From contig CAKQBC010000042.1 in NCBI GenBank assembly GCA_934215995.1, positions 1 to 11,898 of the forward strand: a stretch of 11,898 bases of DNA. The letters are read 5' to 3'. The stretch is from an uncultured Bacillus sp. (GTDB lineage Bacteria > Bacillota > Bacilli > Bacillales > DSM-1321). A program made the position numbers and the translations under genes. The notes under the pieces were generated by a model, which made no database searches, was not told the DNA's origin, and saw only the letters and a list, made by a program, of their open reading frames with translations. This document shows, in pieces, positions 1-11,347 of the stretch (positions are counted from its first letter, which is position 1; every line of letters starts with the position of its first letter).

Positions 1-36
1 CCTGCGGAAGGCCGAGCGCCTCGCGCGCGGCCTGCT
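1..36. other. Extreme-GC end segment, possible chimeric or recombined junction in pilC
   Basis: Of the first 35 bases only 6 are A or T (about 83% GC), while the adjoining pilC sequence has ordinary, much lower GC. In the pilC frame the segment reads QAAREALGLPQ, with 10 of 11 codons ending in G or C. PilC proteins normally continue here with a hydrophobic, proline-containing stretch leading to the second GE motif. This may be an assembly or contig-end artefact, or a true insertion boundary; the window is too short on this side to decide. Confidence 0.4.
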
Positions 37-1003
37 TTTCCATCGGCACCGTGATTGACTGGCCCCTTTCCAGGGAATCACGGGATTGACGGACGACCTT
101 AGCAATCACTTCATTTTCTACCACTTCTTCTACAATGGCCATTGCCTGAAGAATCGGTACAGAGCTTGTGAAAAGCGAACTGAGCGTCCTAGTCATCTTT
201 GCGAGAGTTGCTTTCTGCGAGATTTTCCCGAACAGTGGCATTCGCAAAATAAAATAATCATAATAATAGCGGCTCTTCTTATTGCCTTTAATCGCGGCAA
301 TCGCGAAATAGATGGCAAGAAAAATTAAAACAACGAAATACCAGGAACGCTGCATAAACTCGCTCGCAGACATGACAAACTTTGTGATTGCCGGCAGGTC
401 AGACCCGAAATCGGCAAACATATCGACAAATGTCGGAACCACGGATACGAGTAAGAAGATAACGACAGCAATCGCCAGGATGCCGACAACTACCGGATAA
501 GCCATTGCCGACTTTATTTTCGAACGTGTGGCATGCTGCTTTTCATAATGGATTGCAAGCCTGTCCAGCGCTTCATCCATGTTTCCTCCCGCTTCCCCGG
601 CCCTTACCATGTTGATGAACATCGGTGAGAAAATCTTCTTATGCTTGGCCGCGGCCATTGAAAGCGGATTTCCCTCACGCAGCTTCTCTTCCACATCTTC
701 CAATGCTTTTCGCAGCGCTTTGCTTTCTGTTTGCCTCGAGAGGATATGGGTTGTATCGACCATTGATACCCCGGCCTTCAGCAAAGTGGAAAATTGGCGT
801 AAATAAATGACGAAATCCTGGAGTTTAACCGGGTTTCCAATCGTAATATCTTTGGTGAGCATTGATTGCTTCACTTCTTCAATCGTTTGCACCTTGATCC
901 CTTCACCGGTCAGCTTCACAACGGCATCCCTTCTGGAATCAGCAATGATATAGCCCGACTTTGACCCTTTGATTGTCCTTCCTTTATATGAGAATTTAGC
1001 CAT
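1..1003 (-). CDS. pilC: Type IV pilus inner-membrane platform protein PilC (GspF family), C-terminus cut by window edge
   Basis: Polytopic platform protein that couples the cytoplasmic PilB/PilT ATPases to pilin insertion and removal. The ATG at 1003-1001 directly abuts the pilT stop (TAGATG), with an AAGGTGGAG ribosome binding site inside the end of pilT, so the two are translationally coupled. I read 334 residues; the family is usually about 400. Visible features are a short N-terminal region starting MAKFSYKGRTIKG; the first GspF domain at about 63-190 with the family signature MVRAGEAGG at 132-140; a first TM helix at about 168-190 followed by a short loop; and a second TM at about 221-239. 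The second GspF domain starts near 258 (LFGKISQKATLAKMTRTLSSL) and should carry a second GE motif beyond the edge. The last ~11 residues (from about residue 324) fall in DNA of very high GC and do not resemble the usual FP-rich continuation; see findings. Confidence 0.95.
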   Translation of the reverse strand, partial: MAKFSYKGRTIKGSKSGYIIADSRRDAVVKLTGEGIKVQTIEEVKQSMLTKDITIGNPVKLQDFVIYLRQFSTLLKAGVSMVDTTHILSRQTESKALRKALEDVEEKLREGNPLSMAAAKHKKIFSPMFINMVRAGEAGGNMDEALDRLAIHYEKQHATRSKIKSAMAYPVVVGILAIAVVIFLLVSVVPTFVDMFADFGSDLPAITKFVMSASEFMQRSWYFVVLIFLAIYFAIAAIKGNKKSRYYYDYFILRMPLFGKISQKATLAKMTRTLSSLFTSSVPILQAMAIVEEVVENEVIAKVVRQSRDSLERGQSITVPMEKQAAREALGLPQ

Positions 1004-2044
1004 CTACTCCACCTTTTCCCCTAAAAAAGCTACTGCGGATTCATTTGTGATCACTCCCGCTGCAATGAGGTCCTTCATGCTGCTTTCAAGTGTATGCATT
1101 CCTTGTGCCTTCGAGGTCTGCATGACATTGACGATCTGATGGATTTTTTCATTCCTAATCAGGTTTGCCACTGCCGCATTATTCACAAGGATTTCGGTCG
1201 CCGCTCTCCTCCCGCTTTTATCCGCTTTCGGAAACAGGCGCTGGGATACAATCGAAACAAGGACAGATGCCAATTGAATGCGGATCTGCGGCTGCTGGGC
1301 TGGCGGGAATACGTCGATGATCCGGTCGATGGTTGAAGGAGCGCTTGATGTATGGAGTGTCCCAAGCACCAAATGTCCTGTTTCCGCCGCCGTAATCGCG
1401 GTATGGATCGTTTCAAGATCCCTTAACTCCCCTACGAGGATGACATCGGGATCCTGCCGCAACGCAGCACGGAGACCATTCGCGAAATTATTCGTATCGA
1501 AGCCCACTTCCCTTTGGTCGATGATGCATGTATTATGCTTATGCAAATATTCAATTGGATCCTCGAGTGTGATGATATGCTTTCTCATGACTGTGTTCAT
1601 ATATTGGATCACTGATGCAAGCGTCGTCGATTTTCCGCTCCCTGTCGGCCCGGTTACGAGGACAAGACCCTGCGGTTTTTCAGCGATCTTTCTTAATATC
1701 GGTGGCAATTCCAATTCATCAATAGTCGGAATCCTAGTTGGCACAATTCGTACGGCAAGGGCCACACAAGATCTCTGAAAATAAGCATTCACCCTGAATC
1801 TCGAAATGCCCGGGATGCCATAGGAAAAATCAAGCTCGCCCTTTTCCATGAACTGCTGCCACATGTTATCAGGGATGATTGATTTAGCCATTCCTTCTGT
1901 CTCTGCCGGCAATAGCGGCTCCTTCCCGTACTTCTTCAGGTCCCCGTTCAGGCGCATGACCGGGGGCACTCCAACCGTCATATGAATATCCGATGCCTTT
2001 AGTTCAAAAGCAGCCTTAAGCAATATGTCTATCTTTTTTTTCAT
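1004..2044 (-). CDS. pilT: Type IV pilus retraction ATPase PilT
   Basis: Hexameric secretion-superfamily ATPase that depolymerises the pilus and powers retraction; it acts at the cytoplasmic face against PilC. The 346 residues match normal PilT length. Motifs seen: Walker A GPTGSGKST at 132-140, Asp box ITLEDPIEY at 158-166, Walker B QDPDVILVGELRD at 197-209, His box GHLVLGTLHT at 223-232, and a C-terminal NLIRNEKIHQI (294-304) corresponding to the PilT-specific AIRNLIRE motif. It lacks the MshEN region and tetracysteine motif of PilB, which supports the PilT call. The ATG at 2044 has an AGGGGTG site overlapping the pilB stop, 10 bp downstream of pilB. Its presence implies a retractile pilus rather than a ComG-type pseudopilus, which normally has no PilT. 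Confidence 0.97.
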   Translation of the reverse strand: MKKKIDILLKAAFELKASDIHMTVGVPPVMRLNGDLKKYGKEPLLPAETEGMAKSIIPDNMWQQFMEKGELDFSYGIPGISRFRVNAYFQRSCVALAVRIVPTRIPTIDELELPPILRKIAEKPQGLVLVTGPTGSGKSTTLASVIQYMNTVMRKHIITLEDPIEYLHKHNTCIIDQREVGFDTNNFANGLRAALRQDPDVILVGELRDLETIHTAITAAETGHLVLGTLHTSSAPSTIDRIIDVFPPAQQPQIRIQLASVLVSIVSQRLFPKADKSGRRAATEILVNNAAVANLIRNEKIHQIVNVMQTSKAQGMHTLESSMKDLIAAGVITNESAVAFLGEKVE

Positions 2045-2054
2045 GGGAGCACCC

Positions 2055-3719
2055 CTATTCCAAAATGGCCACTCGTAAAATTTCCTCAGTCGTCGTCAAT
2101 CCTTGTTTCACCTTAAGCAAACCATCGTCAATCAAAAAGATCGTTTTATTCTTTATCGCCAATTCCCTCAATTTCGTAAAAGAGTCCCCGTTCATGATGA
2201 CCCTTTTCATCTCGTCATTTATTACAAGGATTTCATGAATGGCGATCCGGCCTTTATATCCGGTCATATTGCATGAGGAGCAGCCTCTTCCCCGGTTGAC
2301 CCGGTCAATTTTCATGCCCCGCCTTGCAAATATATCTATCTCTCTTTTAGAAGGCTCCTGTTTCTCAGCACAGTCTCGGCAAACCCTTCTTACCAGACGC
2401 TGCGACACCACCCCGCTTAAGGAGGAAGCAATCAGGAAAGGCTCGACCCCCATATCGACCAGCCTTGTAATCGTGCTGAGCGAGTCATTCGTATGGATGG
2501 TGCTGAGCACCAAATGGCCTGTCAGTGATGCCCGGATGGCGATTTCGACCGTCTCCTTATCCCGGATTTCCCCTACCATGATGATGTTCGGATCCTGCCG
2601 AAGGATGGATCTGAGCCCGGCAGCGAAAGTCATGCCGACGTTCGTATTTACCTGGACCTGATTGATTCCTTCGAGCTGGTACTCAACCGGATCTTCTACC
2701 GTGATGATGTTCACTTCTTCACTGTTCAGCTTGTTTAAAGCAGCATAAAGGGTCGAAGATTTACCCGATCCGGTCGGCCCGGAAATGAGCACTATGCCGG
2801 TCGGCTGTTCGATCATCTGATTGAATCGGCCAAAATTTATTTTATTGAAGCCAAGTTTATTCAAATCATTCAGGGAACTTCCAAGATCCAAAATCCGCAG
2901 AACAAGTTTTTCCCCATAAACAGTAGGCAATGAAGACACTCGCAAGTCGACCGGATGAAAGTCGAGAACCATCTTGATCCGACCATCCTGAGGAATCCTG
3001 TATTCCGTAATATCCAAATTGGCCAGAATTTTGATCCTGGCTATCAGGACGCTTTGCATCTGTTTCGGCAATACCCGCTCGGTGCGAAGCACCCCATCGA
3101 CCCGATAGCGGATAATCACTTTCGTTTCCTGGGGATCGACATGGATGTCACTCGCTTTTTGGGTGACGGCATTTGACAATAGCTGATTGACGAGCCTTAC
3201 GACCGGAGAATCGCTATCGGTTATCTTTTCGGCCGGAACAAACTCCTCTTCACGCTTGTTTTCATCCATCAGCTCATCAAGGCCTTCGTCCTGGTCGTAA
3301 TACTTCGTGATCGACCTTACAATGTCATCCCTTGTTGCGATTGCCGTCTCTATCTGGAAGCCCGTCGACAAACGAAGGTCATCAATCGCATAGAAATCCA
3401 TCGGATCGGCCATGGCGACAAACAGGCGGTCTCCGTCCTTCTTCAGCGGGACAAGCATGTTCCTTTTGGCTATCTCCCTCGGGACAATGTTGAAAAGCTT
3501 TATGTCGAACGGGTAGCGGTACAGGCTGACATGGGGAATACCGAGCTGGAACTCCAGCACCTCGATTAGCTGCTGTTCGGTTATAAATCCTTTTTGCAGA
3601 AGCATATCGCCCAGTTTCTGTTTTGGGCTTTTCTCCTGCAATGCGGTCTCCAGCTGCTCCACCGTGATCAATCCGGTCTCTACCAATAGGTCTCCCAATC
3701 TTTTTCGGGTTTGCACCAT
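2055..3719 (-). CDS. pilB: Type IV pilus extension ATPase PilB with N-terminal MshEN domain
   Basis: GspE/PilB-type ATPase that drives pilin polymerisation. At 554 residues it is typical in length. Residues 7-66 form two tandem MshEN motifs, RLGDLLVETGLIT... and KLGDMLLQKGFIT..., ending QLGIPHVSL; in MshE this fold binds cyclic di-GMP. The ATPase core has GPTGSGKSS at 314-322, VEDPVEY at 341-347, RQDPNIIMVGEIRD at 374-387 and GHLVLSTIHTND at 401-412. A zinc-binding tetracysteine is seen as C447-x2-C450 and C480-x2-C483, as in GspE/PilB and unlike PilT. The C-terminal DGLLKVKQGLTTTEEILRV is the usual family ending. The ATG at 3719 follows AAAAGGCGTG and lies 53 bp after the VanW/G5 gene, the widest gap in the operon. 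Confidence 0.97.
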   Translation of the reverse strand: MVQTRKRLGDLLVETGLITVEQLETALQEKSPKQKLGDMLLQKGFITEQQLIEVLEFQLGIPHVSLYRYPFDIKLFNIVPREIAKRNMLVPLKKDGDRLFVAMADPMDFYAIDDLRLSTGFQIETAIATRDDIVRSITKYYDQDEGLDELMDENKREEEFVPAEKITDSDSPVVRLVNQLLSNAVTQKASDIHVDPQETKVIIRYRVDGVLRTERVLPKQMQSVLIARIKILANLDITEYRIPQDGRIKMVLDFHPVDLRVSSLPTVYGEKLVLRILDLGSSLNDLNKLGFNKINFGRFNQMIEQPTGIVLISGPTGSGKSSTLYAALNKLNSEEVNIITVEDPVEYQLEGINQVQVNTNVGMTFAAGLRSILRQDPNIIMVGEIRDKETVEIAIRASLTGHLVLSTIHTNDSLSTITRLVDMGVEPFLIASSLSGVVSQRLVRRVCRDCAEKQEPSKREIDIFARRGMKIDRVNRGRGCSSCNMTGYKGRIAIHEILVINDEMKRVIMNGDSFTKLRELAIKNKTIFLIDDGLLKVKQGLTTTEEILRVAILE

Positions 3720-3772: not shown

Positions 3773-5140
3773 TTACTTGCTTTCTTCTTCGCTAAGAGGA
3801 GGTTCTGCTGAATTCTGTTCTTTACGGGCAGGAGTTTCCCCCTCACCTTTTTCTGCGCCTGTACCATCTTCATCCGGTTCCTCTTTTTCATCTTCCGCTT
3901 CCGATCCCGGATCTTGTTCCATGCCTTCTTCTGTTTCTTCCTCTTCAGGCAGTTCTTGCTCTGTCCCGCTTTCCGGCTCGTTTACCGGCGGAACGACCAG
4001 CCCTTGATATACAATACGGTGAATCGGTGCATAGAAATCATCTGCAATCAGTTCTTTCCCGATCAAATAGCCCAGCTCATCGTATATAACCTGATAAAGC
4101 TTAACCATTTGCCCGTTTTTGCCTTCCTTATGAAGAGATGTGCTTCCGCTTGGAATACTGCTGTCGAACTGAACGACTGTCTTCGGCTCAAAAACCCGCT
4201 CATCTTCAGCCGTTATTACATAGCGGTACAAAAATGGACTTCCCCTCAAAACGACTGATAAACGGTTGGCTTCGTAGGCTAATTCAAATGTATATGGTGT
4301 ATCATTTTCATTGGACAAAACCAGGTCCATGTTTTCTTCATGGGAGACTTTCGCTTCATACCCCAGCTTGCTGTAAGCTGGCAATTCCTTGCTTATATGC
4401 CTCTCCAAAACCGAGAAGTTGGTCGGCAAAGCCGCCCCGAACAAGGCAGTTGCGACCATGCTGAGCGTCTCTTCCGAATAACTGTTATTCCCTTCCTCCT
4501 CCAAATAGGCAAGCAGCGAGAAGATACTCTTCCCTTCAAGTTCAATCGTCGGGTAGGAAGAAACAAACTCAGAAAGCTCGACATGGGGCTTTTCCAAGTT
4601 TACAGCTGAAGTGGAGATCACTTCATTCGTTTCATAACCAGCGACGAACTGGTCAAGGTCGTAGCTGTATTCCGAGATTTCCAGATTAGCGGCAGCAGCC
4701 GTCAATTCGGCATTCAGGCGATCATAATCTATTGAAACAGAGCTTAAACCAGGAGAAACCTTTGATAGTTCCTCCTGCAGGGCTTCCCGGGAAACCTGGA
4801 CAACGACGCTATTGTCCTGTCCATTTTTAATTGCGTTTACGGTTTCCAACGGTTCAAAGCTGTAGAAAACCGTTTCTACTTCAGCTTCTTTTTCTTTATA
4901 GGAGATTGTTAGTTTCGTATTCTTCCTCCATTGTTTGACCGCATCCTCCAAAACCCTGGCAGACTCTGTTTTTGTCTTGTTTGATATGTCCTGGGAGGCA
5001 ATCATAGTCCCCTCCGGAAATAGTGGATTATTGCCGAAAAAAGAATCAATCACATTTGTACTGAAAAAAGTGAAACTGAAAATATACGCAGTTGAAATAA
5101 CCAGAATGATGAATAGTCTAACAAAATGATTATTTTTCAA
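3773..5140 (-). CDS. Membrane-anchored VanW-domain and G5-domain wall-side protein with acidic C-terminal tail
   Basis: The 455-residue protein starts with TTG at 5140 (site AAAGGGG about 8 nt upstream; the next in-frame ATG is 45 codons in and would remove the membrane anchor). Residues 7-28 form one hydrophobic helix after few charges, predicted N-in, so the bulk lies outside the membrane. Residues about 50-220 are an uncharacterised region of the kind found N-terminal to VanW. Residues about 222-310 match VanW (YSEETLSMVATALFGAAL, then LERHISKELPAY, YEAKVSHEENMDLVLSN). Residues about 312-382 match G5 (GKNGQMVKLYQVIYDELGYL, FYAPIHRIVYQGL), a fold linked to peptidoglycan or aminosugar binding. 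Residues 386-455 are Glu/Pro/Gly-rich low complexity with no LPXTG sorting signal. VanW's biochemical role is unknown. Its place between the PRC gene and pilB suggests a job in pilus passage through, or anchoring to, the wall; that is inference. Confidence 0.87.
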   Translation of the reverse strand: MKNNHFVRLFIILVISTAYIFSFTFFSTNVIDSFFGNNPLFPEGTMIASQDISNKTKTESARVLEDAVKQWRKNTKLTISYKEKEAEVETVFYSFEPLETVNAIKNGQDNSVVVQVSREALQEELSKVSPGLSSVSIDYDRLNAELTAAAANLEISEYSYDLDQFVAGYETNEVISTSAVNLEKPHVELSEFVSSYPTIELEGKSIFSLLAYLEEEGNNSYSEETLSMVATALFGAALPTNFSVLERHISKELPAYSKLGYEAKVSHEENMDLVLSNENDTPYTFELAYEANRLSVVLRGSPFLYRYVITAEDERVFEPKTVVQFDSSIPSGSTSLHKEGKNGQMVKLYQVIYDELGYLIGKELIADDFYAPIHRIVYQGLVVPPVNEPESGTEQELPEEEETEEGMEQDPGSEAEDEKEEPDEDGTGAEKGEGETPARKEQNSAEPPLSEEESK

Positions 5141-5161: not shown

Positions 5162-5947
5162 TTACGCTTCGACATTCATAGATAATTCAACCAATAAGCC
5201 TGGATCACCTTTTTGAGCATCTTTCACGTCTTCTCTCGACAGGACTGTACCTTCCCGGAATAAAATTTTCCCGTTCGGATCCTGTATATTTCTTGTTACC
5301 CGCTTTCCTTCAAGCAATTGAAGCTGCTTTAGCCTGAACACTTCATCAAAATCGCCAATTTTGGAATCTGCGGTTGCATATCCCTGCTCTTCGTTAGTCG
5401 CCGTCTCCTCCGCTTCTGCAGCAAGACCCGGTTCTTCCTCCATCAATTGCTCGCTTGCGGAAAGAAAATGCTTACTTGCGTCATCCTCGACAATAATGAT
5501 ATCCCGCCCATATGTAAGGACCGTTTCCGTCGGAAGGACCACTTCCCCGCCGGCCGCCTTAAGGTTGGCTCCAATTATCTGGCCGGTTTCCTCATCAAAG
5601 AAATACTCAGTGAGTTCCCCGAGCAGCTGGCCTTTTCGCGTCATGACCTTCGTATTGATGATTTTCACTTTTTTGTTCAAGAGCTGGTTGGCAATCGGTA
5701 TTTCATTCAGGTCGATAACCGCATTCGCATTATCGACTGTCACAGCGTATTCCCCTATCCCGATTATTTTCTTGAAAGGGATGGCTTTGACACTGACCTG
5801 CCAATCCTCATGGTCGATCGTCAAGAAATCGACTGTGCCTTTTTCCGGATTGATTACCAAGCTTTTTACTTTCCCTACTTCTGTACCTTCTGAAATGCTA
5901 ATAATCGGCAAACCAATAATCTGCATGCTGTTTTTCATGAACTTCAT
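5162..5947 (-). CDS. Two-domain PRC-barrel protein of the pilus operon
   Basis: Soluble protein of 261 residues with no signal peptide or TM segment, predicted cytoplasmic. The N-terminal ~80 residues form one PRC-barrel (SMQIIGLPIISISEGTEVGK, VDFLTIDHEDW, IPFKKIIGIGEYAVTV). Residues ~88-158 form a second (LLNKKVKIINTKVMTRKGQL, ETGQIIGANLK, PTETVLTYGRDIIIV). An acidic linker (~160-195) leads to a short beta-rich C-terminal module containing GKRVTRNIQDPNGKILFREG. PRC-barrels are small RNA- or protein-interaction domains, as in RimM and the photosynthetic reaction-centre H subunit. Start choice: AAAGGTG lies just upstream of ATG 5947; an in-frame GTG at 5953 and ATG at 5938 are alternatives. 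It is 21 bp from the VanW/G5 gene and under 30 bp after the acidic TM gene, so co-transcription is very likely. Its role in piliation is unknown. Confidence 0.85.
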   Translation of the reverse strand: MKFMKNSMQIIGLPIISISEGTEVGKVKSLVINPEKGTVDFLTIDHEDWQVSVKAIPFKKIIGIGEYAVTVDNANAVIDLNEIPIANQLLNKKVKIINTKVMTRKGQLLGELTEYFFDEETGQIIGANLKAAGGEVVLPTETVLTYGRDIIIVEDDASKHFLSASEQLMEEEPGLAAEAEETATNEEQGYATADSKIGDFDEVFRLKQLQLLEGKRVTRNIQDPNGKILFREGTVLSREDVKDAQKGDPGLLVELSMNVEA

Positions 5948-5976
5948 CCACACCTTTACTTTTGGCTTTTATATTT

Positions 5977-7566
5977 TCACCATCTCTGGTTAGTAATCAA
6001 AAATTGTTCGTATAAAAATCGTATCTGCTCCTGCAAAAGAGGATAATGCTCATATTTCACATTCAGTGAAACCGCCAGCCTGTGGAATTTCTCCAGTTGC
6101 TTTGTGTTTTGGTACAGTTTTAATAATTCAGTGGCTACCAGGAAGTAAACGCTGTCCGGCAAACTTTCGGACATATGCGTCTTAATGAAAACCTCCAATT
6201 CATCAGGTTCCATAACTGCTTCATAGTGCTCAATCTGTTGGAGAAATGTATCCGTAAACTGTCTTTCGGCAGGCAGTTCGTTTTCATCTTCATTCACAAT
6301 ACCTTCAACAGGTTCACTGTCATCCGCAAACTCCTCATCTCGAGACTCCAGCTCGTCCCATTCCGGAATTTGCAGTACTTCATCTGCTTCTGTGTCATCC
6401 ATAGCGACTTCAGGCTGGTGTTCTTCCGGTTCTTGAGGAAGCTCCTCCTGGGTGTTGTCTTCCAGAACAGGAACATCCTGTTCCGGTTCTTCAAGCAAGG
6501 TTTCAACCTGGGCTCCTGTCTCTTCTTCCTTCACTGTTTCCAAGCCATCCTCAGCAGTATCTTCTAGGCGATCCTCCTGGTATTCAGAATTGCCAGGATC
6601 ATGATCGTCCACTTTGCCCATAATTTCATCTTCGTTCAGCAGATCTTCAAGCGGAGAGATATACCCCTCATCTTGCCCGCCTTCTGAAGCGTTTCTTTCT
6701 TTCTCCCAATCTATGAAATCATCCTCAAGGCTCCCGGAACTTGCAAGTTCCCCATCATCCTCATTTGTGTCGATTTCATCTTCTACAAGCAAATCTTCCA
6801 GAGGAGAGATGTAATCCTCATCCCGCCCATCTTCAGAAACTGGTTCTTCCCTATCAGTATCCGGGATTCTGTCCTCAAGATTTTCGTCCTGTCCTTCCAT
6901 TCCTTCATTCTGATCCCCATCCACTTTGCCATTTGCCTCGTTTTCATCGAGCAAATCCTGGAGCGGGGGGATGTAATCCTCATCCTGCTCGTATTCGGAA
7001 TATAGAACCGTACCATCAGAAGCAGGCTCTTCCTCTTTCATTTCTGGTTCGGCAAGATCAACCTCTTCCTCTATGCTTTGCAAATCCTCACGACTCGGTG
7101 TTTTTACCTGTTCTTCACTTTCCTCATGCAAAGCCGCGATATATCCTTCATCAGGCTCTGCACTTACGCGCGGAAGAACGGAAACCGGATCCGTTACAGC
7201 ATTAGCATTATATGACTCTAGCACTTCCTCTTCGTCTGCTTTAGACTCCTGTTTCTTTCTGCTCCCGAAAAGGATATCTGCTCCTCGAGAGGAAGAGACT
7301 TCATCCATATCGGCAGATGTCGACAGCAGCAGGAATCCTTCCATCCGGCTTGCTCCCACATAGGAGATTATCAGGACGAGGATCGCCATCAGGCCAAAAA
7401 GCTGCCAAAGTGGGATATAATCCATAGCCGCAAAAGATGCAGCCGAAATAGCAAAAGCCAAAACCGTCAAAATTGCTTTTCCCTTCATGGTCAGCGAGAG
7501 CGGCAAAAAGTACAGCACGGGAAACAAAATAACGGCAGCCACTAAAGACATTAGTAGAAACAACAA
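5977..7566 (-). CDS. Three-TM protein with long acidic, repeat-bearing cytoplasmic tail; first gene of the pilus operon
   Basis: Not a family I recognise by name. I place the start at TTG 7566, preceded by GAGGTG and a 6-nt spacer, giving 529 residues; a longer reading to 7869 would run antisense through the divergent pilin gene. Three hydrophobic helices lie at about 2-25, 31-48 and 52-70. Positive charges (TMKGK after helix 1, SRKK at 102-105) suggest N-out and C-in, so the tail would be cytoplasmic. Residues ~110-430 are very rich in Glu/Asp, probably disordered, and carry three copies of a motif with consensus SExxxDExYIxPLxDLLxE (190-208, 244-262, 294-312) plus a weak fourth copy (DEGYIAAL, 139-146). 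Residues ~434-526 are a predicted all-helical domain. The layout (membrane anchor, acidic linker, helical end) recalls FimV-like pilus scaffold proteins, but I see no sequence match. It heads the operon with its own promoter. Confidence 0.8.
   Translation of the reverse strand: MLFLLMSLVAAVILFPVLYFLPLSLTMKGKAILTVLAFAISAASFAAMDYIPLWQLFGLMAILVLIISYVGASRMEGFLLLSTSADMDEVSSSRGADILFGSRKKQESKADEEEVLESYNANAVTDPVSVLPRVSAEPDEGYIAALHEESEEQVKTPSREDLQSIEEEVDLAEPEMKEEEPASDGTVLYSEYEQDEDYIPPLQDLLDENEANGKVDGDQNEGMEGQDENLEDRIPDTDREEPVSEDGRDEDYISPLEDLLVEDEIDTNEDDGELASSGSLEDDFIDWEKERNASEGGQDEGYISPLEDLLNEDEIMGKVDDHDPGNSEYQEDRLEDTAEDGLETVKEEETGAQVETLLEEPEQDVPVLEDNTQEELPQEPEEHQPEVAMDDTEADEVLQIPEWDELESRDEEFADDSEPVEGIVNEDENELPAERQFTDTFLQQIEHYEAVMEPDELEVFIKTHMSESLPDSVYFLVATELLKLYQNTKQLEKFHRLAVSLNVKYEHYPLLQEQIRFLYEQFLITNQRW
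6625..6999 (-). repeat. Three in-gene copies of an acidic SExxxDExYIxPLxDLLxE motif
   Basis: Copies lie at 6937-6999 (DEDYIPPLQDLL), 6775-6837 (DEDYISPLEDLL) and 6625-6687 (DEGYISPLEDLL), about 50-54 residues apart. Copies 1 and 3 are also followed by a GKVD(G/D) sequence. A degenerate fourth copy is at 7129-7152. The DNA copies are related but not identical, and the motif core is better conserved than the intervening acidic sequence, as expected for a retained binding peptide rather than recent slippage. Confidence 0.8.
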
Positions 7567-7643: not shown

Positions 7644-7674
7644 AAATTGACAAGATTTGAAAGAAGGGACTATG

Positions 7675-8130
7675 ATGAAATATTTTCAGCTCCTTAAAAA
7701 AGCCCGCGGATTCACCCTGTTGGAGGTGCTGCTGTCCATCGCGATCCTCAGCATTATGTTTATGGCAGTTATGGGATTCTTCTCCCAATCTTTTAAATAC
7801 ACAAAACAGAACGAAAGTAAAACAGTCGGGGTCAATTTTGCTCGTAATGCCTTGAATTATATTGAGCATCAGGACTTCGAGAAAGTGAAGGCTCTGCCTG
7901 CTGATAAGAAACTATTGGATCAAGCTACTTGTGCTTCAGTCTCTGACCAGAAGTTTATGGTTAACTGCGCCAATATACTTAGCAGCGAGATTAATAATGT
8001 TCAATACGATGCAACGATTACGATCAATACGAAAAAAAATGAAGAGCTGTCCGATTTTCTCATTCCCGTCACAGTCCAAGTGAATTGGAACGATAATACG
8101 GTCGAGGTTGAAGGGGTGGTTAAAAAATGA
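7675..8130 (+). CDS. Type IV minor pilin, PilV/GspI-like, with class III signal peptide
   Basis: A 151-residue minor pilin. The leader MKYFQLLKKARG is cut by prepilin peptidase before F13, giving FTLLEVLLSIAIL with the conserved Glu at +5 (E17) and a hydrophobic N-terminal helix to about residue 36. The C-terminal globular part contains exactly two cysteines (C86, C98), likely a disulfide, and ends in beta-rich sequence (VTVQVNWNDNTVEVEGV). Start: GAAGGG lies 6 nt before ATG 7675; ATG 7672 is a close alternative, and TTG 7657 has no ribosome site. Its stop overlaps the next start (ATGA). Minor pilins of this type usually join PilW- and PilX-like proteins in a complex that primes pilus assembly and sits at the tip; the PilV label comes from order and size and is approximate. 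Confidence 0.88.
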   Translation: MKYFQLLKKARGFTLLEVLLSIAILSIMFMAVMGFFSQSFKYTKQNESKTVGVNFARNALNYIEHQDFEKVKALPADKKLLDQATCASVSDQKFMVNCANILSSEINNVQYDATITINTKKNEELSDFLIPVTVQVNWNDNTVEVEGVVKK

Positions 8131-8738
8131 GGAAGCTGCTGAAATCTAAAGGCGGATTCACCCTGATCGAACTGCTGGCGACCATAACTGTATCTTCCAT
8201 TATTCTGACGGTTTTATATTCCATCTTTGCGACCGGCATCACACTCTATCAAAAAATTCAGGTGGAAGCCCAAATGAGGGATGATGCGGATTACATCGCC
8301 ACCATGATCCTGAACGAAATGTACGAAAATCCTCCCCGGTCCGTAAAAATTTATGAAGACACAGCCGAATCAAAGGAAGGAATTCAATTGATTCGCGCTG
8401 AAGAGAAAGTCGTCAACAAGTATCTTGTCGAAGACAGCCAGCAGGATGAAAAAACGATCCAAATCTTTTTTAAAGGCGGCAAGCTGTTCATCGAGAGGTC
8501 ACTGATCGGACAGCAAGAACCTGATGAGACAATTGAAATCGAATCGCCATCAGCAAAGATTGATCCGGACAAATCATTTATCACCCTCGGACAGGAAACA
8601 GGGAACTGTTCCGCGGACAGGAAAGAATGTGCGGCCGGTACAATTGAATTGCAGCTATTCATCATGCCGGACGAAGGTATGGCCGGTTCATTAATCAAAA
8701 GAGAACCATTGAAACTGAACAGTTCATTTGGTTTTTAG
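8127..8738 (+). CDS. Type IV minor pilin, PilW/GspJ-like, with class III signal peptide
   Basis: A 203-residue minor pilin. The leader MRKLLKSKGG is cut before F11, giving FTLIELLATITVSSIILTVL with Glu at +5 (E15). The helix runs to about residue 48 and is followed by a mixed alpha/beta domain. There are exactly two cysteines, C161 and C168 (GNCSADRKECAAG), in a position like the C-terminal disulfide loop of many pilins. The ATG overlaps the upstream stop by 4 bp, with AGGGGTGG 8 nt ahead, so translation is coupled. The larger size and second position match PilW or GspJ in minor-pilin operons. The mature protein should be extracytoplasmic and membrane-held until assembled. Confidence 0.88.
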   Translation: MRKLLKSKGGFTLIELLATITVSSIILTVLYSIFATGITLYQKIQVEAQMRDDADYIATMILNEMYENPPRSVKIYEDTAESKEGIQLIRAEEKVVNKYLVEDSQQDEKTIQIFFKGGKLFIERSLIGQQEPDETIEIESPSAKIDPDKSFITLGQETGNCSADRKECAAGTIELQLFIMPDEGMAGSLIKREPLKLNSSFGF

Positions 8739-8753
8739 AAGGGAGGGAACGAT

Positions 8754-10373
8754 ATGCTGCGCAATGAAAAGGGATCGGCTTTGCTGACCGTGATGATCAT
8801 GCTGCTCGTTTTTACAACACTGGGCCTTGTCCTCCTGTCCGTCAGCATTAACGGAGCCAAAAGAACGGCTGTCCGTGAGGAAGAGATCGTCACGAACATT
8901 GAAGCGCTGACCAACCTGAAGGAAGGCGTCGCCCAGATTCAAAACTATATTGCTAAAGAAAACGAAAAATCACTTGCCAAGCAGATGAGCCTGCTGGATA
9001 TGAATACGTACGATTATGATCAGGAAATTAATCGTTTCATAGATGAAATTAACTCAATAGGGTACACAATCACCAATCTCTCCAAGACACCTGAGTATCA
9101 AATCAGCATTGATTCCAGCCAAACAAGGGTGCTTGAAGTGAGCAACGATTATTACAGCCAGAAGGTGTATATAACCGCGACACCCAGTTTCCTGAAATAC
9201 GCAGTCGGTTCAAGAGGCGATCTGCATATAAATGGCTCCCTGCTCATCGACGGCCAAATTTATGCGAAAGATTCCCTGAACATCAGCAATTATGCCAACT
9301 ATGTATACAAGGGCACTCATTTGACAACCAAGACCGAGCTGCCTGCCGTCGAAGGCAGCAATACTGTGACTGTAGAAAAGGAAATGATTGAACTATGCGA
9401 TTCTACTTCAGCTTCATCTTGCTATGAGGCCAGCAAGTCCGGGTTTACACGTTCAGCCTCTTTGTGGAAGAAAATCACCTCTCCCCAGAAAGCATTTAGC
9501 CATGGGACTGTCGCCTATAACCTGGTTAAAGAGGATTTCATCGAAGTTGACCTGTACCAGACATTCATCGATAAGCTCGTCGTTGACAATCATTTTCCCG
9601 AAAATGTTTTTTCCAGAAAAATGGACAAACAGGAAATAAGGGATAGCCTGACAGCCCTATTCGAAGATATGGAGACAGGAAATTCCGGTTTTTCTATCGT
9701 GGATTCCCTCGCTGATATCAGCCAAGATCCTTTCACTGCTGAAACGTTTTACCATGAAGGGAATGCCAGATTGGAAACAGACGAATTGGTTCTTGGGGAC
9801 GATGACTGGTTAATCATCAACGGCAATGCCGACTTTGAAAGCGAAGGAGAAGAAAATCTGACGATCAAGGGAAATATATTGATTACAGGGGATGTGAATA
9901 TCGCCGGGAACCTTGAACTCGCCTCAGTCATGTACGCACTTGGGGATAATGCAGTGCTGAATAATGCTGATATTAACGGGGAAATGGATTCGAACAATAG
10001 TAACCCAACCTTCATATTCTTGACCGATGGAAATCTTGAAATTGCAAAAATCAATAAATTCGATTCCAGCTCAATTGAAACGAACTTCATCAGCGGCTTC
10101 ATCTATACTACTAAACAGGCTGAAATGTACGGTGTCGGTTCATTAATCCGAATAGACGGGGGCGTTTTTTCCGAAGGGGACCTGGTTTTGAACGGATATA
10201 GGGGTGAAGCGGAAGAAGATAGTTCCTCAAAATTAAAGCTTTCCTCTGCCGAGGATTATACTGCTTCCCGCTTCCGTGTAAAAAACAACAAACAACTATT
10301 CCTCGACCAGATGCATGCATTGCCTAGAGTAGATAAACTATCAACATTGACGGACAGAATCGAGAAAAAATAA
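8754..10373 (+). CDS. Large PilX-like minor pilin with predicted beta-solenoid region
   Basis: 539 residues, far longer than a Gram-negative PilX (about 150-200). The N-terminus MLRNEKG/SALLTVMIMLLVFTTLGL resembles PilX: short charged leader, Gly cleavage site, long helix, and no Glu at +5 (Thr12 instead). Residues ~36-110 are a helical stalk. Residues ~150-186 (GDLHINGSLLIDGQIYAKDSL) and ~350-480 (NLTIKGNILITGDVNIAGNL, LNNADINGEM, GVFSEGDLVLNG) show short hydrophobic/Gly/Asn repeats like a bactofilin-type right-handed beta-solenoid, interrupted by a helical insert at ~255-330. The only cysteines are C215 and C223. GGGAGGG lies about 7 nt before ATG 8754; the gap to the previous gene is 15 bp. 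It is last in the operon and probably a tip or assembly-priming subunit; by its size it could act as an adhesin. Confidence 0.83.
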   Translation: MLRNEKGSALLTVMIMLLVFTTLGLVLLSVSINGAKRTAVREEEIVTNIEALTNLKEGVAQIQNYIAKENEKSLAKQMSLLDMNTYDYDQEINRFIDEINSIGYTITNLSKTPEYQISIDSSQTRVLEVSNDYYSQKVYITATPSFLKYAVGSRGDLHINGSLLIDGQIYAKDSLNISNYANYVYKGTHLTTKTELPAVEGSNTVTVEKEMIELCDSTSASSCYEASKSGFTRSASLWKKITSPQKAFSHGTVAYNLVKEDFIEVDLYQTFIDKLVVDNHFPENVFSRKMDKQEIRDSLTALFEDMETGNSGFSIVDSLADISQDPFTAETFYHEGNARLETDELVLGDDDWLIINGNADFESEGEENLTIKGNILITGDVNIAGNLELASVMYALGDNAVLNNADINGEMDSNNSNPTFIFLTDGNLEIAKINKFDSSSIETNFISGFIYTTKQAEMYGVGSLIRIDGGVFSEGDLVLNGYRGEAEEDSSSKLKLSSAEDYTASRFRVKNNKQLFLDQMHALPRVDKLSTLTDRIEKK

Positions 10374-10445: not shown

Positions 10446-11264
10446 TTAATAATTTCGGAAAACAATCAATGCTTCCTCATCCCTATATTCCTTGGCTATA
10501 TCCATAGCTGTTTTCCCGTTCTCATTTGTAAAAGAAATACTCTCGGGCGCTTTTTCCAACAAGTACCCGTATAATTCACTACGCCCATTTTCCACCGCTA
10601 GGATCAAAAGCGATTTATGCTCATTGGATGCAGAAATCAAATTTGAATCAGATTCCGCAATCTGCTTTACCGTTTCGGCATCCCCCCGTATGACAGCTGC
10701 ATGAAGCGGATTGATTCCTTCTTCATTCTCGGCATAAACGTCTGCCCCATGGCTCAGCATAAGCGAAACGATATCAGAAGCCCCTTTATAGGCAGCGAGA
10801 TGTAATGGTGTGTTGCCATCCTCGTCCTTCATCTGAATCTCTTTTTTACCTTTTTCGATAATCAGTTCAAACAGTCCTGCGTATTCTTTCCGGTCTTCTT
10901 CTGACCAAGCCTGTATGTGGACTCCATCAAGCATTGCATGGGAAGCTGCCAGTAACAGGGGCTCCTCTTTTGTCGTCGCTCCTGATTCAATCAACAGCTT
11001 GGCGATGGTTGTCCTTTGCATCTCCAATGCCAGATGCAAGGGCGTTTTTTCATCTGTTTGTTGATGATTGATCAATTCAGGATGCTCTTCAATAAAAATT
11101 TTCACTTTATCCGGTCTATCCTGCTCAATGTAAGATATTAGCTCCCGGGTTAACTCTTTTTTTTCTTCTTCGGACGGTCCTTTGAATAACCAATACCCTC
11201 CGATAGCTAATGCAAGCAACAGGAAAGCACCAAGGGCAATGGCTGTTTTTTTGTGCAATTTCAT
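10446..11264 (-). CDS. Membrane-anchored ankyrin-repeat protein
   Basis: A 272-residue protein read from ATG 11264 (MKLHKKTAIAL), with AGGA close by and AAAGGGG further upstream. Extending to the ATG at 11327 would add 21 residues that run back across the upstream terminator, so I reject it. A basic N-end and a hydrophobic helix at 7-27 give an N-in, C-out signal anchor (or an uncleaved signal peptide), which would place the repeats outside the membrane. Ankyrin repeats are clear at about 72-100 (EKTPLHLALEMQRTTIAKLL), 149-179 (GNTPLHLAAYKGASDIVSLM), 183-211 and 215-246, with a degenerate repeat at ~104-145 carrying an insertion and a capping repeat from 249. Ankyrin repeats bind proteins; the partner is unknown. 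The gene converges on the pilin operon and has its own terminator, so a pilus link is not implied. Confidence 0.88.
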   Translation of the reverse strand: MKLHKKTAIALGAFLLLALAIGGYWLFKGPSEEEKKELTRELISYIEQDRPDKVKIFIEEHPELINHQQTDEKTPLHLALEMQRTTIAKLLIESGATTKEEPLLLAASHAMLDGVHIQAWSEEDRKEYAGLFELIIEKGKKEIQMKDEDGNTPLHLAAYKGASDIVSLMLSHGADVYAENEEGINPLHAAVIRGDAETVKQIAESDSNLISASNEHKSLLILAVENGRSELYGYLLEKAPESISFTNENGKTAMDIAKEYRDEEALIVFRNY

Positions 11265-11289
11265 GATTCCTGGCCCCTTTCGTACGGAG

Positions 11290-11304
11290 AATGCCAGTGG
11301 CATT
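11290..11304. repeat. Perfect 7-bp-arm palindrome upstream of the ankyrin gene
   Basis: AATGCCA-G-TGGCATT, symmetric around 11297. It sits in the ~50-bp gap between the upstream terminator and the ankyrin start, overlapping a weak TTGAAA-type -35 on the minus strand. It may be an operator, or just a small hairpin in the leader. Confidence 0.4.
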
Positions 11305-11315
11305 TCAATAAAATA

Positions 11316-11347
11316 AGGCCGGCTCATAGCTGAAATCGAGCCGGCCT
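11316..11347 (-). terminator. Rho-independent terminator of the Big_2 gene
   Basis: Perfect 10-bp GC-rich stem AGGCCGGCTC (11316-11325) and GAGCCGGCCT (11338-11347) with a 12-nt loop. Read on the minus strand it lies 6 nt after the Big_2 stop and is followed by TTATTTTATT. It separates that gene from the ankyrin gene downstream. Confidence 0.9.

Follow-up and report, generated by a model that had tools for sequence, protein, structure and literature searches.

Protein X, the 529-residue product of an open frame on the minus strand of the window (positions 7566-5977; the window is the whole stretch of 11,898 nucleotides analysed here), belongs to a real, unnamed membrane protein family that is restricted to Bacillaceae and near relatives, is associated with type IV pili and has a strictly linked partner, a PRC-barrel protein. 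We see an even chance that X serves the type IV pilus machine as a membrane adaptor and that X, the PRC-barrel protein and a VanW-G5 protein make up a single envelope-spanning unit by which this machine is held or positioned.

Results

Protein X and its operon

The frame of X, a three-TM acidic protein (5977..7566, minus strand), has a TTG start, preceded at the usual distance by the ribosome-binding site GAGGTG. Since homologs of X are present in dozens of genomes, the gene is real and conserved. X is the first of six genes on a single strand, in the order X, PRC-barrel, VanW-G5, pilB, pilT and pilC. The extension ATPase gene pilB (2055..3719, minus strand) matched TIGR02538 at 5.7e-186, under the curated cut-off of that model, and residues 7-58 of its product matched the c-di-GMP-binding motif model NF053729 of NCBIfam with 63.3 bits against a cut-off of 38. 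The retraction ATPase gene pilT (1004..2044, minus strand) scored 482.8 bits with TIGR01420 (cut-off 319.1), and the platform protein gene pilC (2..1003, minus strand), truncated by the window edge, was named by sequence and operon position. Two minor-pilin genes run divergently on the plus strand, the first with a prepilin N-terminus (7657..8130, PF07963 1.7e-07; 8127..8738, PF07963 1.4e-06). They are followed at 8754-10373 (plus strand) by a 539-residue protein, possibly a large pilus-tip protein, that has a hydrophobic segment near its N-terminus and a weak bactofilin-like stretch below cut-off. At 10446-11327 (minus strand) an ankyrin-repeat protein, likewise with a hydrophobic N-terminal segment, adjoins a Big_2 (Ig-like) protein truncated by the window edge.

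The original prediction for this DNA had placed X at the head of a pil operon and described three N-terminal hydrophobic helices, a repeat-bearing acidic region and a helical C-terminal domain. The gene order given above agrees with this, the three helices were seen in both hydropathy and alignment, and the repeats and the C-terminal domain were recovered as detailed below. The figure of about 320 acidic residues is right as the length of the acidic region and wrong as a residue count, which is 127 D/E in 348.

A lineage-restricted family tied to type IV pili

The pilB loci from 71 genomes were annotated and the family was recovered through these loci. An HMM of the TM domain found X in 57 of the 71; because the model was trained on 52 of those loci, this number expresses homology and not prediction. 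Across 299 genomes surveyed in the order to which the window belongs, a set that partly overlaps the 71, the TM domain was detected in 143, that is in 136 of 205 PilT-positive versus 7 of 94 PilT-negative ones; X was undetectable by the TM-domain search in 69 of the 205. Where X and pilT lie on the same contig, the two are on the same strand in 127/127 cases among the matches listed and no more than 10.5 kb apart in 126/127, the exception being G226 at 11.2 kb. Of the other nine PilT-positive genomes with X, at least two have X and PilT on different contigs. PilT occurs twice on contig C25 of G195, with about 12 kb between the same-strand copies. Beyond the order the family is rare in our samples. 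Sampling 299 genomes of the class returned the C-terminal domain (CTD) in 11, of which eight were already in the order sample, two were new (G366 and G497, both with the CTD beside PRC and VanW) and one was off-target (G536). Among 299 genomes of the phylum the TM domain was found in three, two from the order and one off-target (G660). The pilus association, for which the original prediction had proposed a survey of genome context, is thus upheld by the PilT distribution and by the short distances to pilT, and homologs were not found routinely away from pil genes.

X was also said to match no named family, and we found no significant Pfam, NCBIfam or PDB-sequence match, hence no match to a known non-pilus family; the PDB sequence search gave nothing better than E 0.074. 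Weak Pfam and NCBIfam matches (DUF3987, DUF3322, LCxxNW, BCCT, Wzy_C and others) were discarded, as they were far under cut-off where shown and inconsistent between members. Protein database searches with X gave only two metagenome copies, which are 88-90% identical, plus one Peribacillus protein in some of the searches; some of these searches scored only about 8000 candidates sharing most words and are therefore not a census. Genome contigs searched with the X sequence itself gave no relative. No description of X was found in the open-licence full-text literature, and no open-licence paper was found that combines PRC-barrel, type IV pil and pilB.

A second X-like protein, acidic, with three TM helices and without the CTD, lies between VanW and pilB in two loci that also carry long X (L075:6389-7729, plus strand; L076:4497-5756, minus strand). 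Cytobacillus firmus NBRC 15306 has its X divided between two frames (L012:6549-7833, plus strand) by either a sequencing error or a recent break, and X is whole in the close relatives L013, L015 and L018.

The C-terminal domain and the PRC-barrel protein

Members of the family occur in a long form, which carries the CTD, and in a short form, which has the three TM helices and a shorter acidic tail. The CTD (residues 432-529, 98 aa; 5977..6273, minus strand) was modelled by AlphaFold2 on 35 homologous CTDs as five helices with a mean pLDDT of 92, a confident model that points to a TPR-like fold. FimV was not among the fold matches listed for the CTD, which proves nothing.

The neighbouring PRC-barrel gene (5162..5953, minus strand) encodes 263 residues and passes the gathering score of PF05239 (57.7 bits, cut-off 21.2; E 1.2e-15). 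An HMM of the CTD, for which 33 of the proteins from PRC loci were the training set, matched 35 of 35 PRC-bearing pil loci versus none of the 36 others (71 loci). In the 36 genomes without a PRC gene at the pil locus the partner is absent genome-wide: 20 have no PRC match at E 0.001, and 16 have generic PRC proteins only, in frames of 167-198 aa, the best remaining match being a generic PRC in a 186-aa frame (2e-11). The CTD is present in 74 of the 299 order genomes, the PRC gene in 77 and both in 74, and in all 74 CTD genomes the two are on the same strand with their matches 17-106 bp apart. The three PRC-only genomes have a long X with a TM domain preceding PRC, the CTD of which is unrecognised by the HMM. 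CTD matches in G216 and G290 were dropped as off-target, as they fall in ORFs of more than 1400 aa away from pil genes.

When mapped on a PilB+PilT tree, the CTD and the separately coded PRC protein change six times, and six of six independent pairs agree (sign test p 0.031); the tree was made by a quick method and has some long branches, and six switches are of borderline significance. Peribacillus glennii (L005) has a natural X-PRC fusion, seen in this one genome, in which PRC starts directly after the CTD within a single open frame. In L033, L037, L043, L065 and L069 the X-PRC pair stays together about 5 kb beyond pilT. The joint gain and loss of the CTD and the PRC gene suggests a working partnership between them within the pilus machine. 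AlphaFold applied to the natural fusion gave no confident docking of the CTD on PRC (pTM 0.33).

Membrane domain, topology and the VanW-G5 protein

The TM domain of X (residues 1-85, three helices; 7312..7566, minus strand) was examined in a 49-row alignment and by charge counts. Loop 1 is basic (LTxKGK) and loop 2 contains a conserved W. The mean number of K+R is 2.51 in loop 1, 0.29 in loop 2 and 2.14 after TM3. By the positive-inside rule and the natural fusion to the PRC protein, X is predicted to be N-out/C-in with its tail in the cytoplasm, and the same location claimed earlier for the tail stands as a prediction on these two grounds.

The VanW-G5 protein (3773..5140, minus strand; 455 aa, one N-terminal TM) passes the gathering scores of PF04294 (29.1 bits versus 27; 7.6e-07) and PF07501 (27.3 versus 23; 4.3e-06). 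At E <=0.1, all 42 relatives, a set that includes the window protein, gave a VanW match and 39 of them a G5 match; apart from G5, the search turned up no peptidoglycan-binding domain in these 42. G5 binds wall sugars. The distribution of X is nested within that of VanW: VanW is present in all 57 X-bearing loci, X is absent from 6 of 63 VanW loci, and none of the 8 loci without VanW has an X match. Minimal X proteins of 94-104 aa, made of the TM helices alone, lie directly upstream of VanW (L078, L079, L083, L087), and their existence means that the acidic tail and the CTD are optional. VanW proteins beside X align to the window VanW from residue 20 or earlier in 56 of 57 cases (the exception is L034), whereas those without X align only from residue 132-193 (6/6), the six X-less loci representing two clades only. 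The N-terminal part of VanW and X would seem to belong together, as these alignments suggest, though two events cannot prove it. A conversion of VanW to a lipoprotein upon loss of X is not claimed, since it came from a loose regular expression only (3/6 X-less versus 5/38 X-bearing).

The acidic tail

Residues 86-433 (348 aa; 6268..7311, minus strand) contain 36.5% D/E, with a net charge of -108 and a pI of 4.05. The repeat D-E-[DG]-Y-I-[PS]-P-L-[QE]-D-L-L occurs at residues 195 (DEDYIPPLQDLLDE; 6943..6984, minus strand), 249 (DEDYISPLEDLLVE; 6781..6822, minus strand) and 299 (DEGYISPLEDLLNE; 6631..6672, minus strand), with a degenerate copy at residue 139. None of 5000 shuffles that preserved the composition of the tail reached three pattern matches, so the window copies are beyond chance. 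Tails are 207-707 aa long in 37 long forms and 49-361 aa in 28 short forms, with mean D/E of 33% and 27%, respectively.

A pattern made by hand and picked after inspecting the tails, [YF]-h-x-[EDPS]-h-[EDQ]-x-h-h, occurred in 15 of 30 long (about 0.22 expected) and 5 of 24 short (about 0.09 expected) non-redundant tails among those first seen. In unseen tails, taken from 40 fetched loci of which 3 were dropped as similar to or among those already seen, it occurred in 0 of 18 long and 2 of 19 short. The failure in unseen long tails led us to reject it as a universal tail pattern. Unsupervised motifs from 24 short tails were also rejected as universal, being driven by close relatives and not carrying over to held-out long tails. 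Most likely the hand-made pattern is a motif shared by the wider clade to which the window belongs. Its presence in short forms that have no PRC makes PRC an improbable target, and the pattern may serve as the best remaining lead to a contact with PilB, PilT or PilM.

X in the absence of pilus motors

X is kept in genomes where the type IV pilus pilB and pilT are absent (G130, G337) or partly deleted (G092). At locus L077 of G130, X, PRC and VanW are intact and the type IV pilus pilB, pilT and pilC are missing; the notion that X and PRC are broken there was dropped, as both are open frames and X ends at its own stop. The best PilB and PilT relative in G130 is one 354-aa frame of 41-42% identity, presumably the competence ATPase ComGA. 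In G366, X-PRC-VanW lies by maf-radC-mreB, about 300 kb from pilB-pilT. The tail-less X of about 100 aa lies beside a complete pilB-T-C in L078, L079 and L087.

Discussion

What arrangement could bring together a membrane domain that follows VanW and a C-terminal domain that follows PRC? In the adaptor reading, the three-helix domain of X would sit N-out/C-in in the membrane beside VanW-G5, the body of which would be outside, and the acidic tail would reach into the cytoplasm as a spacer and perhaps a docking line. In the long form the TPR-like CTD would dock the PRC-barrel protein encoded next door. X, PRC and VanW would hold the pilus machine, or set its position, with respect to the cell wall in the manner of FimV/HubP, with the functions split over separate chains, and may affect piliation. 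A more specific version, in which VanW-G5 outside, X in the membrane and PRC inside form a monoderm landmark that grips the wall and places the pilus machine, is possible, though we hold it as tentative. Such a module could be stripped stepwise, with the CTD and PRC lost first, then the acidic tail, then X and the N-terminal part of VanW, and finally VanW.

The original prediction had the tail tethering the motor, and in its direct form the acidic tail would bind PilB or PilT through its repeats and keep the ATPases at the membrane. X shares an operon with pilB-T-C, its presence tracks PilT, and the tail pattern was strongly over-represented in the relatives first seen; short forms carry the pattern without the CTD and PRC, so it would target something else, possibly a motor. 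However, the pattern was chosen after looking and fared poorly in unseen tails, tail-less X proteins coexist with full pilB-T-C, and X-PRC or X-VanW is kept where the motors are absent or distant. The domain of X that varies tracks PRC and the TM part tracks VanW, and the tether was accordingly not borne out. X may bind or position the motor, though some results argue against it, and we regard the direct tether as unlikely. We are even less inclined to see X chiefly as a protein that accompanies or stabilises VanW in the membrane, with a fast-evolving acidic spacer of little function. In favour of this, minimal X (about 100 aa) consists of nothing but TM helices next to VanW, X is nested within VanW, and the tail length is variable. 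Against it, the tails remain acidic in both forms, and the CTD is conserved, confidently modelled and has a strict partner. We hold this reading to be very improbable.

X and PRC could also act as an on/off switch that makes pilus activity answer to the state of the cell, signalled for instance by c-di-GMP or division, with no scaffold involved. PilB matches a c-di-GMP motif, many related loci have a GGDEF-GAF gene on their 5' side, the FimV domain of HubP activates a phosphodiesterase (passages of PMC12918733), and the CTD-PRC pair is optional, as expected of a regulator. By Pfam, however, neither X nor PRC has an enzymatic or ligand-binding domain, and the GGDEF gene lies beside X with and without the CTD. 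A tblastn search over L001-L071 placed the GGDEF-GAF diguanylate cyclase gene 5' of the pil genes in 20 of 22 loci with short X, in 14 of 35 with PRC and in 1 of 14 that lack X, but several loci are cut at their edge and the frequencies are confounded by this. An exclusion of the PRC form by the GGDEF gene was rejected for the same reason. A further GGDEF-GAF diguanylate cyclase gene is at L083:3253-5016. Taken together, a purely regulatory role appears improbable to us.

The adaptor reading touches a subject on which, to our knowledge, little is established: how pili are anchored and placed on the thick monoderm wall is poorly known, and we know of no obvious monoderm counterpart of the Gram-negative outer-membrane secretin, periplasmic ring and FimV. 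SgmX, a TPR protein of Myxococcus xanthus, reportedly stimulates pilus formation. X is like it in that a domain modelled as TPR-like would serve a type IV pilus machine and unlike it in being membrane-anchored, with a TPR-like domain of one short unit. Gram-positive pil operons carry pilB, pilC, pilD, pilM and related genes, and the pil operon of Bacillus strain NRRL B-14911 was described as maybe the first reported in a Bacillus (passages of PMC3244431). VanW has no mention in the main text of that paper, and X and the PRC gene are undescribed in its pil-operon passages.

The closest parallel in layout is FimV/HubP, the polar scaffolds of Gammaproteobacteria, which have a membrane anchor, an acidic repeated tail and a TPR end (passages of PMC12918733). 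X shares with them the membrane anchor and a long, variable acidic region with repeats (imperfect ones in HubP); its C-terminal domain looks TPR-like in the model, and it has a pilus link, as does P. aeruginosa FimV (passages of PMC12918733). The FimV/HubP trait of a cytoplasmic acidic tail is present in X with its 127/348 D/E and three repeats, the side of the membrane being predicted. X differs in having three TM helices instead of a single TM region, with TM1 starting at the N-terminus, in having a PRC-barrel protein as partner, and in that the outside part would be VanW-G5. A LysM domain was not found among the Pfam matches of 37 X members (E <=0.1), nor was a FimV-named NCBIfam match at E <=1 in the 37, for which the presence of the FimV model in the library is not confirmed. 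Without LysM and with three TM helices, X is not a member of the FimV family. The suggestion that X is a counterpart of FimV-type scaffolds therefore survives for the layout, with an acidic tail and an apparently TPR-like end, and fails for family membership. If X works like FimV/HubP, its wall-facing part is VanW-G5. X, PRC and VanW offer a testable three-gene set, with a predicted architecture and a predicted CTD-PRC pair, in culturable Bacillaceae, and the comparison with FimV/HubP suggests that scaffolds with an acidic tail and a TPR-like domain may have arisen independently on pilus machines.
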